DNA from: Buttiauxella agrestis
GTDB lineage: Bacteria; Pseudomonadota; Gammaproteobacteria; Enterobacterales; Enterobacteriaceae
Assembly (NCBI RefSeq): GCF_900446255.1
Contig: NZ_UIGI01000001.1
Coordinates: 584,763-648,762 of the forward strand
Direction of reading: 5' to 3'
Length of the DNA stretch: 64,000 nucleotides
Part shown: positions 5,864 to 9,113 of the stretch, piece by piece
Layout: each line of letters begins with the position of its first letter
Numbering within the stretch: the first letter of the stretch is position 1
Translations under genes and position numbers: made by a program
The notes under the pieces: generated by a model
The model's database searches: none
What the model saw: only the letters and a program-made list of their open reading frames with translations
Told to the model about the DNA's origin: nothing

Positions 5864-6754
5864 ATGGCAGATCTTGACGATATCAGAGAAGGTAAAGACT
5901 ACGGCATTGGCCGCCCTCAGGAGAACAAAGCGTTTTACCTGAAGGGCAGCGGGGCGCTGGATTGGGGGATGCAATCGCGCCTGGCGCGGATATTTAACCC
6001 CGACTCCGGGCGCACCGTCATGTTGGCCTTCGATCACGGCTATTTCCAGGGGCCGACCACCGGCCTTGAACGTATCGATTTATCTATTGCGCCGCTGTTC
6101 CCGGAAACCGATGTGCTGATGTGCACGCGTGGTATTTTGCGCAGCGTGGTGCCGCCAGCCACGAACAAACCAGTGGTGTTGCGGGCCTCGGGCGGGAATT
6201 CAATTCTCAGCGAACTGTCGCGCGAAAGTGTGGCGGTGACGATGGAAGATGCGCTGCGCCTGAACGCCTGCGCGGTGGCTGCACAAATTTATATCGGCAG
6301 CGAATACGAACATCAGTCGATCAACAACATTATCAAGCTGGTGGACGAAGGCACGCGTTATGGGATCCCGACTCTGGCTGTCACCGGTGTGGGTAAAGAG
6401 ATGGCGCGAGATGCGCGCTATTTCTCCCTCGCCAGCCGAATTGCCGCAGAAATCGGGGCGCAGTTTGTGAAAACCTATTTTGTTGAAGAAGGGTTCGAGA
6501 AAGTGACGGCCAGTTGCCCGGTGCCGATTGTTATCGCCGGAGGGAAAAAATTGCCGGAACAAGAAGCGCTGGATATGTGCTTCCGGGCCATTGACCAGGG
6601 CGCATCGGGCGTGGACATGGGGCGCAATATCTTCCAGTCAGACGCGCCACTTGCGATGTTAAAAGCGGTGAAAAAAGTGGTGCATGAGAATGTTTCGGCC
6701 CGGGATGCGTATCAGTTCTGGCTCGATGAAAAACATCATGGAGGCAAGGCATGA
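5864..6754 (+). CDS. lsrF: 3-hydroxy-5-phosphonooxypentane-2,4-dione thiolase LsrF
   Basis: Class I aldolase-like enzyme that transfers an acetyl group from the isomerised phospho-AI-2 product to coenzyme A, the last step of AI-2 degradation. The 296-residue protein has the DeoC/FbaB-type barrel, with [15 protein letters not shown] near the N-terminus and the active-site lysine region [13 protein letters not shown]. The open frame begins at 5771 inside lsrB, but the ATG at 5864 has a strong GGGAGGA ribosome binding site and matches E. coli LsrF (291 aa). It overlaps lsrG by 4 bp. Confidence 0.95.
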
Positions 6755-7041
6755 ACGTGACGCTGGTGGAGATTAATATCAAACCGGAACGGGTCGATGA
6801 GTTTATGGATGTGTTCCGCGCCAATCACGAAGGGTCCATCAACGAGCCGGGGAATCTGCGTTTCGATGTGTTGCAGGATCCGGATGTGGCGACACGGTTT
6901 TATATCTACGAGGCGTATCAGAACGACGAAGCAGTGCTGGCGCATAAGCAGACGCCGCATTACTTAGCGTGCGTTGAGAAGCTGGATGGGATGATGTCGG
7001 AACCGCGTAAGAAACGGAGTTTTGTGGGGTTATTGCCATAG
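6751..7041 (+). CDS. lsrG: (4S)-4-hydroxy-5-phosphonooxypentane-2,3-dione isomerase LsrG
   Basis: Small ABM-fold (antibiotic biosynthesis monooxygenase-like) isomerase that converts phospho-AI-2 to the LsrF substrate. The 96-residue product matches E. coli LsrG in length and in [31 protein letters not shown]-type and [12 protein letters not shown] segments. It is the last gene of the operon; tam, which follows lsrG in E. coli, is absent, and an element with transposon-like ends begins 8 bp after the stop codon. No clear rho-independent terminator directly follows. Confidence 0.95.
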
Positions 7042-7048
7042 GAGATGG

Positions 7049-7557
7049 CTGTCTCTTAGTCAGATCTATATGAGCCAGGTGAAGGTTCCGTTCACTTAAT
7101 TTTCAGTGGCTTATGAAACCACCGAAACGGTGAACGTGCAAAGGGTGCTACCGCAGCACCCTTTGCAATCCCGGCTCCCGGCGTTTAAATCGCCGCTGCG
7201 CGGTAAACCTCCGTTTTTCCTTTCAGTCCCAGGGTCGGTTGTGACTCGCTCCCGGCGATCACAACCTCTCGCCGTTCCCGACGGCTCGACCCGGCCTTCC
7301 AGTCAATACGGAGGCGATTTATGCCGGACTCAAGGTCAACGTCAAAAGCTAAGGTCAAAAGCCGAACCGGTTTTGACTTTGCCCCCGGCATAAATTGCCC
7401 CGGCGCCAGGATTATCAAGGAGAGGGCGTTCTCTCCTTGATACGGTCACCGTTAAAGTGGTTGCAGAGATAACCAGACGTTCGGGTGAGCGGAAATTAAC
7501 GAGGATGACAGATCTCACCCCGGCAAGTTGCCAGACTGAGATCTGTATAAGAGAAAG
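7049..7557. mobile_element. Structured non-coding element with Tn5/IS50-like ends
   Basis: The left end CTGTCTCTTAGTCAGATCT (7049-7067) matches the IS50 inner end (CTGTCTCTTGATCAGATCT) at 17 of 19 positions. The right end, read inward on the minus strand from 7557 to 7539, is CTTTCTCTTATACAGATCT, 17 of 19 to the Tn5 mosaic end and 16 of 19 to the left end. Between them is no convincing gene but a chain of hairpins: a 12-bp perfect stem (7138-7149 with 7155-7166), 8 bp (7237-7244 with 7259-7266), 15 bp with one mismatch (7313-7327 with 7385-7399) enclosing a smaller stem, 12 bp perfect (7413-7424 with 7431-7442), and 10 bp perfect (7508-7517 with 7537-7546) next to the right end. No 9-bp target duplication is evident. 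This is probably a non-autonomous (MITE-like) element; the transposase family is inferred from the ends only. Confidence 0.6.
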
Positions 7558-7577
7558 TTTAAGGATGAAGAATCGGA

Positions 7578-9113
<1,536 letters not shown>

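Follow-up and report, generated by a model that had tools for sequence, protein, structure and literature searches.

What kind of element lies behind lsrG in Buttiauxella agrestis, ended like a transposon and rich in hairpins? Within the window, i.e. the whole analysed stretch of 64,000 nucleotides, it occupies positions 7049-7557 (+ strand) between two genes that, from our own reading of the ORFs, we take to be lsrG (ending at 7041) and a putrescine-type aminotransferase gene on the minus strand (ending at 7578). The left end, CTGTCTCTTAGTCAGATCT (7049-7067, + strand), and the right end (reverse complement CTTTCTCTTATACAGATCT; 7539-7557, minus strand) agree at 17 of 19 positions each with what we presume to be the reference sequences of the Tn5 inner end (IE) and mosaic end (ME), respectively, and in this respect the original prediction of Tn5/IS50-type ends stands. 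The two ends match each other to 84% across 19 bp and are thus terminal inverted repeats. Neither strand has an ORF of 80 aa or more except one (95 aa, 7106-7393, GTG start), which gave no Pfam match up to an E value of 1; as predicted, no plausible protein is encoded and, by ORF scan and Pfam, the element carries no transposase gene, as in MITEs.

The strong hairpins were found as well. A left variable (H1) hairpin at 7137-7167, which covaries strongly among copies, and a right one at 7413-7442 are both self-complementary and have no strand, and neither has the central stem (7313-7399), in which 7313-7327 pairs with 7385-7399 as part of a longer complementarity of 7313-7339 with 7373-7399. 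The predicted RNA fold of the element amounts to -215.9 kcal/mol (z -8.55) and the DNA fold has a z of -11.28; in either case none of 100 shuffles was as low.

A dispersed family and its deleted member in the window

Sequence search of 60 relatives gave matches in at least 17 genomes, including all 12 of Buttiauxella, with 1 to at least 27 matching pieces per genome and at least 20 in six genomes (these are pieces, not copies). The element is a member of a dispersed multi-copy family. Sixty matching regions were chosen and fetched and, together with the window copy, make up a set of 61, all of which match a 640-bp reference copy (L053) that was itself drawn from the fetched set; both core ends are present in 49 of them. 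An undeleted copy is about 640 bp long and consists of Tn5-like ends flanking a core of about 540 bp with two inverted halves, whereas many copies are reduced to the core, their ends being decayed or absent. By eye, three regions (L036, L065, L091) show extra outer layers repeating the CGGTGATTTTCCGTTCACC-type arm, like rings added to the palindrome. The family shares with prokaryotic MITEs the lack of a protein, terminal inverted repeats, target duplications, an intergenic position, many copies and stable stem-loops, but it is longer than the less than 500 bp given as typical of MITEs in the available text of PMC10969869. The open-licence literature, as far as its accessible parts go, yielded no account of these elements.

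The window copy is an internally deleted member of this IS50-ended MITE family. Its core, between TTCCGTTCAC and GTGAGCGGAA (7086-7494, + strand), measures 409 bp instead of the approximately 540 bp of most undeleted copies, and positions ~353-479 of the reference are missing, so the junction near 7400 (7398-7402, no strand) is a deletion in the right half, at the site of the second GGA hairpin pair. The 509 bp had been taken for a complete compact element; they are a deletion derivative of a double element. In the nearest genome (G001; L070, 1201-1719) an element sits in the same lsrG/aminotransferase junction in the opposite orientation and lacks a different part, reference positions ~148-263, and in G005 (L096) the same gene pair has, by eye, no element between it. 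This makes the window insertion old and rearranged, and the two orientations may have arisen by in-place flipping or by two insertions. Retaining one intact half, the window copy looks old and immobile.

Mobility and exchange of transposon ends

The family is mobile. Ends were paired by type and their flanks compared with permuted flanks, in lists that included weak pairs and the window copy, where 1 of 9 flanking bases matches. Each of three end types shows duplications of its own: at least 8 of 9 matching flank bases, with a register of ±1 base, for 5 of 18 IS50-type pairs (0.64 expected; 0 of 2000 permutations), duplications in 7 of 15 IS10-type pairs (2.6 expected, p 0.002), and at least 10 of 11 bases in 4 of 15 IS4-type pairs (0.26 expected; 0 of 2000 permutations). 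Perfect target duplications flank L035 (CCCAAAGGG), L183 (CCCTGTGGG), L185 (CACCATACGCG) and L108 (CACCAAAGTGC). The insertion site of L038 (genome G009) was compared in 11 relatives. In seven the element is missing and the junction short, G001 with a matching undisturbed terminator among them; in three the site is filled by 530-580 bp of other DNA that contains neither element ends nor core ends, and in G005 it holds a short deleted element. At the L035 site the element is absent from all 11 relatives, the comparable CCCTCTCCC hairpin being found only in G005 and G007 and a different terminator in the other nine. The prediction of a mobile multi-copy element thus holds for the relatives, which have 9-bp duplications and one empty site (L038 compared with G001), but not for the duplication at the window copy itself; taken as a whole, a multi-copy, Tn5-ended element without transposase stands, and its completeness and the duplication at the window copy do not. 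A short deleted IS50-ended element in L304 (near 1326-1500) lies in the terminator that L038 occupies elsewhere, which hints at a hot spot.

A search for the Tn5 transposase family PF02281 gave no match in 18 genomes, an uninformative result as the controls were without match too, and NF033590 matched none of 12 same-genus genomes. PF01609 was found in 7 of these 12, and paired IS50-like ends at none of the fetched loci. An exact Tn5 mosaic end, known as an engineered hyperactive sequence, is naturally present in Buttiauxella agrestis (L197, position 14, minus strand).

The copies in Enterobacter, Leclercia, Phytobacter and Silvania are mostly single halves flanked by CTGAGGGATCCCCA-type ends, and of 13 copies examined from Citrobacter, Lelliottia, Escherichia sp., Pseudescherichia and Leclercia, 10 have at least one end like TAATGCC..TCAGTTAA. 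We take these ends to be IS10- and IS4-like, respectively. This identity is supported by PF01609 transposase matches that the same ends enclose in genomes of B. gaviniae and B. massiliensis, the distance between the ends being about 1.3 kb in L228 (399-aa frame) and L229 (partial frame) and 1.4 kb in L235/L239 (broken frame). On the tree of the cargo, copies with the same end type cluster, with 3 parsimony changes compared to a shuffled mean of 8.6 (minimum 6), the labels covering 49 of 187 halves (40 IS50, 7 IS4, 2 IS10). The best reading is that the module has moved between at least three kinds of transposon end, IS50, IS10 and IS4. Unlike usual MITEs, the family would then have a conserved non-transposon cargo common to several end types, a structured noncoding domain that outlasts the exchange of its ends, which departs from the usual view of MITEs as insertion sequences emptied of their contents. 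Three IMG/VR contigs (L105, L106, L107) carry IS10-type copies and may be chromosome-derived or contain prophage flanks.

Many insertion targets of the family resemble, by eye, TMECO intrastrand triplex repeats, for which the available part of PMC4666352 reports no link to mobile elements. Of 149 pattern matches, 36 have a TMECO-like triplex sequence no farther than 110 nt from the core, three of these 36 being viral contigs, and the spacing is 21-23 nt in all 36; the window copy has none. Some Enterobacter TMECO copies may be pieces of a mobile element, as seen at IS10-type loci such as L183 and L220, and the family is a possible mobile source for some of these repeats.

A structured module with GGA loops on one strand

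For a structural comparison 231 halves were cut by pattern from all loci, of which 187 were unique. L104, L118 and L179 are not among these and were judged chance pattern matches, L104 since it fails the model and the other two since they come from distant organisms. A covariance model (R1) whose structure kept only 15 pairs was discarded and replaced by R2. The full element comprises two halves, each a conserved tree with two hairpins whose nGGA loops lie on one strand. In the window a single intact half-module domain remains (7176-7328, minus strand; R2 score 127.7 bits, E 9e-30), with GGA hairpin 1 at 7271-7285 (minus strand, loop CGGGA, closing pair U-A) and GGA hairpin 2 at 7237-7266 (minus strand, loop CGGGA, closing pair C-G).

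Strand-specific GGA loops are conserved. Of 1019 hairpin loops on the GGA strand 399 contained GGA; the complement had 10 such loops of 1020, and dinucleotide shuffles had 151 of 971. Among 20 regions fetched later, of which 19 had been selected with R2 itself and L280 with RF01731, the counts were 42 of 60 on the GGA strand and 0 of 64 on the complement; when L267 and L278, which repeat earlier sequences (L278 being a training sequence), were dropped, they were 38 of 54 and 0 of 58. The loops read AGGGAU and AUGGAU in other genera and are CGGGA pentaloops in Buttiauxella, so that GGA is constant whereas the stems are strongly divergent. The GGA strand also outfolds its complement in 182 of 187 halves, on average by 9.9 kcal/mol.

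After alignment and tree building the 187 halves, many of which are related to each other, revealed 269 double changes from one Watson-Crick pair to another over 73 pairs, compared to 16-43 in slid-partner controls. An alignment of 13 divergent sequences (A2), on which the tested structure had also been fitted, had 17 pairs with double changes against 6.5 in shuffled alignments (0 of 500). Selection for a folded form had been proposed for the interior, and its signs, compensatory changes among copies, were found; a single-copy sequence or stems without covariation would have spoken against a mobile structured element, and all 12 genomes of the genus match and the 269 double changes are present.

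Asymmetry of the exchanges suggests RNA as the folded form, since on the GGA strand changes to G-U exceed those to A-C. Across 47 well-paired pairs, 60 events led from a Watson-Crick pair to G-U and 31 to A-C (p 0.003); the ratio was 87:55 with a looser cut-off (p 0.009), 44:25 with a stricter one (p 0.03) and 113:93, a modest bias, when all pairs were included. In the Buttiauxella cores, read on the plus strand, the left half contains 12 G-U and 58 A-C cells and the right half 39 and 4, although these cells depend on one another and the counts by column miss significance (p 0.15). Such a reversal is expected if each half acts as RNA on its own GGA strand. A single-strand RNA spanning the whole element as a unit was rejected, the bias being opposite in the two halves. 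Altogether, RNA-level selection on the module is supported.

The main competitor of this view is an ordinary palindromic MITE, in which DNA hairpins or cruciforms aid transposition or replication, template switching makes the double changes and the RNA is functionless. The entire element is indeed a giant imperfect palindrome and its DNA fold (z -11.3) lies beyond the RNA fold (z -8.6), but the GGA loops are conserved on a single strand only. The H1 hairpins of the Buttiauxella cores lack a G-U excess (8 G-U and 8 A-C cells), as would be expected for DNA, whereas in cells of both inverted halves G-U exceeds A-C on the GGA strand. Palindrome correction during replication could be a source of double changes, and stem-loop transcripts are typical of MITEs according to an excerpt from PMC10969869; Enterobacter, Leclercia and E. 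coli nevertheless keep single halves that have no inverted partner, and the module persists under different transposon ends. We consider this explanation unlikely, though it deserves to be kept in view.

TwoAYGGAY, CsrA and the remaining readings

Beyond the original prediction, the strand-specific GGA module is related to the RNA family TwoAYGGAY (RF01731; clan CL00106, the CsrB clan) and is carried on other transposon ends. Rfam matches inside the element and on its GGA strand were obtained in L115, L014, L030, L013, L001 and L173, only L115 (56.7 bits) being above the gathering score, and the window copy had no match to RF01731 at E values up to 1. When the window alone was searched against Rfam, two miRNA matches at chance level were the only result and were rejected. 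Like TwoAYGGAY, the module, including the window copy, has two tandem GGA-loop hairpins within a closing stem; the window copy differs in its CGGGA loops and in a score below family level. TwoAYGGAY is tabulated as a probable RNA in the accessible part of PMC2864571, its function is given as unknown and CsrA binding as predicted in that of PMC4333381, and the consulted portions of the literature do not describe it as mobile or multi-copy. TwoAYGGAY, so far an orphan family, would thereby be placed on mobile elements and acquire a partner open to testing.

R2 detected the module in at least 46 of 149 Enterobacteriaceae genomes (at least 45 of 148 genera). Of 229 genomes taken from the whole class 5 matched, namely G001 and four weak matches. 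RF01731 matched 21 of the 149, in 12 cases over the cut-off, and 16 of the 21 had at least two matches. Of 5426 E. coli genomes, 3825 match the window element, in no case across at least 80% of its length; between asmA and yegH there is a distant single half, a site seen in the two records examined. By eye, the remnant in K-12 has no GGA pair, which makes K-12 data unsuitable for testing this pair. A supposed link to yegH through the available text of PMC7177868 proved a false lead.

The paired loops point to CsrA. Excerpts of two papers describe the CsrA consensus ruACArGGAugu, with GGA located in a hairpin loop (PMC5694010), and CsrA sites as generally paired (PMC4383904). At least 10 of 12 consensus positions were reached by 28 of 187 halves, by 1.4% of shuffles and by no complement; by genus, the 28 halves were 19 of 73 halves outside Buttiauxella and 9 of 114 within, the mean of the Buttiauxella halves (7.3 of 12) being about that of shuffles (7.4). 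By its motifs, the module is probably bound by CsrA, the case being weaker for the Buttiauxella loops than for others. The sponge RNAs CsrB, CsrC, RsmY and RsmZ present paired GGA loops as the module does, but the module has only two GGA hairpins per half, many dispersed copies and no promoter found at the window copy, where a consensus scan of 6700-7900 for sigma-70-like promoters was negative, so read-through is the likely source of its RNA.

We therefore favour, at a little above an even chance, a MITE with a conserved RNA cargo that is moved in trans and probably bound by CsrA after read-through. An IS50/Tn5-type transposase would move the non-autonomous MITE in trans into intergenic, terminator-like sites, its interior being a conserved cargo of two inverted modules of ~245 nt and not a decayed transposase. 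As RNA of one strand, each half is predicted to form a closed tree with two nGGA hairpins, a GCGG hairpin, H1 and an outer CGTTCACC/GGTGAACG stem. Read-through transcripts of neighbouring genes would most likely expose the paired GGA loops, and a CsrA dimer may clamp them, thereby tuning the transcript or forming a small CsrA sink. If CsrA binds, the 10 or more copies that the genomes of some species contain could be enough to shift this global regulator. A bolder version, which we put forward tentatively as possible but short of probable, is a selfish CsrA-binding double hairpin that switches among MITE vehicles of IS50, IS10 and IS4 type in Enterobacteriaceae; if true, TwoAYGGAY would be mobile and multi-copy, and transposon load would be tied to the Csr network.

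The insertion sites bear on another explanation, a structured 3'-end or transcription-insulating element whose hairpins stop or protect transcripts and whose GGA is incidental or serves another protein. Both neighbours were called for 169 halves, double elements being counted twice, and 82 sites were convergent, 74 tandem and 13 divergent; at the tandem sites the GGA strand agreed with that of the upstream gene in 34 of 74 cases, i.e. without bias, a point against the favoured reading, and gene orientation showed nothing beyond an excess of convergent sites. Many targets are CCC..GGG terminator-like hairpins, a preference that may be mere target choice, and the window stretch holds 2 terminator-like sites where 1.3 are expected. 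As it also leaves the conserved GGA loops unexplained, we regard this role as improbable. A decaying IS50, with its transposase lost and its folding due to chance, would fit the IS50-like ends and the lack of a recognisable protein, but is contradicted by an interior that is conserved and covaries across genera, on different ends, and deserves almost no credence.

Outside the family discussed here, GGA double hairpins or similar structures were seen in other Gammaproteobacteria (L282 in G208, L281 in G231), and five weak matches in G208 suggest another repeat family.
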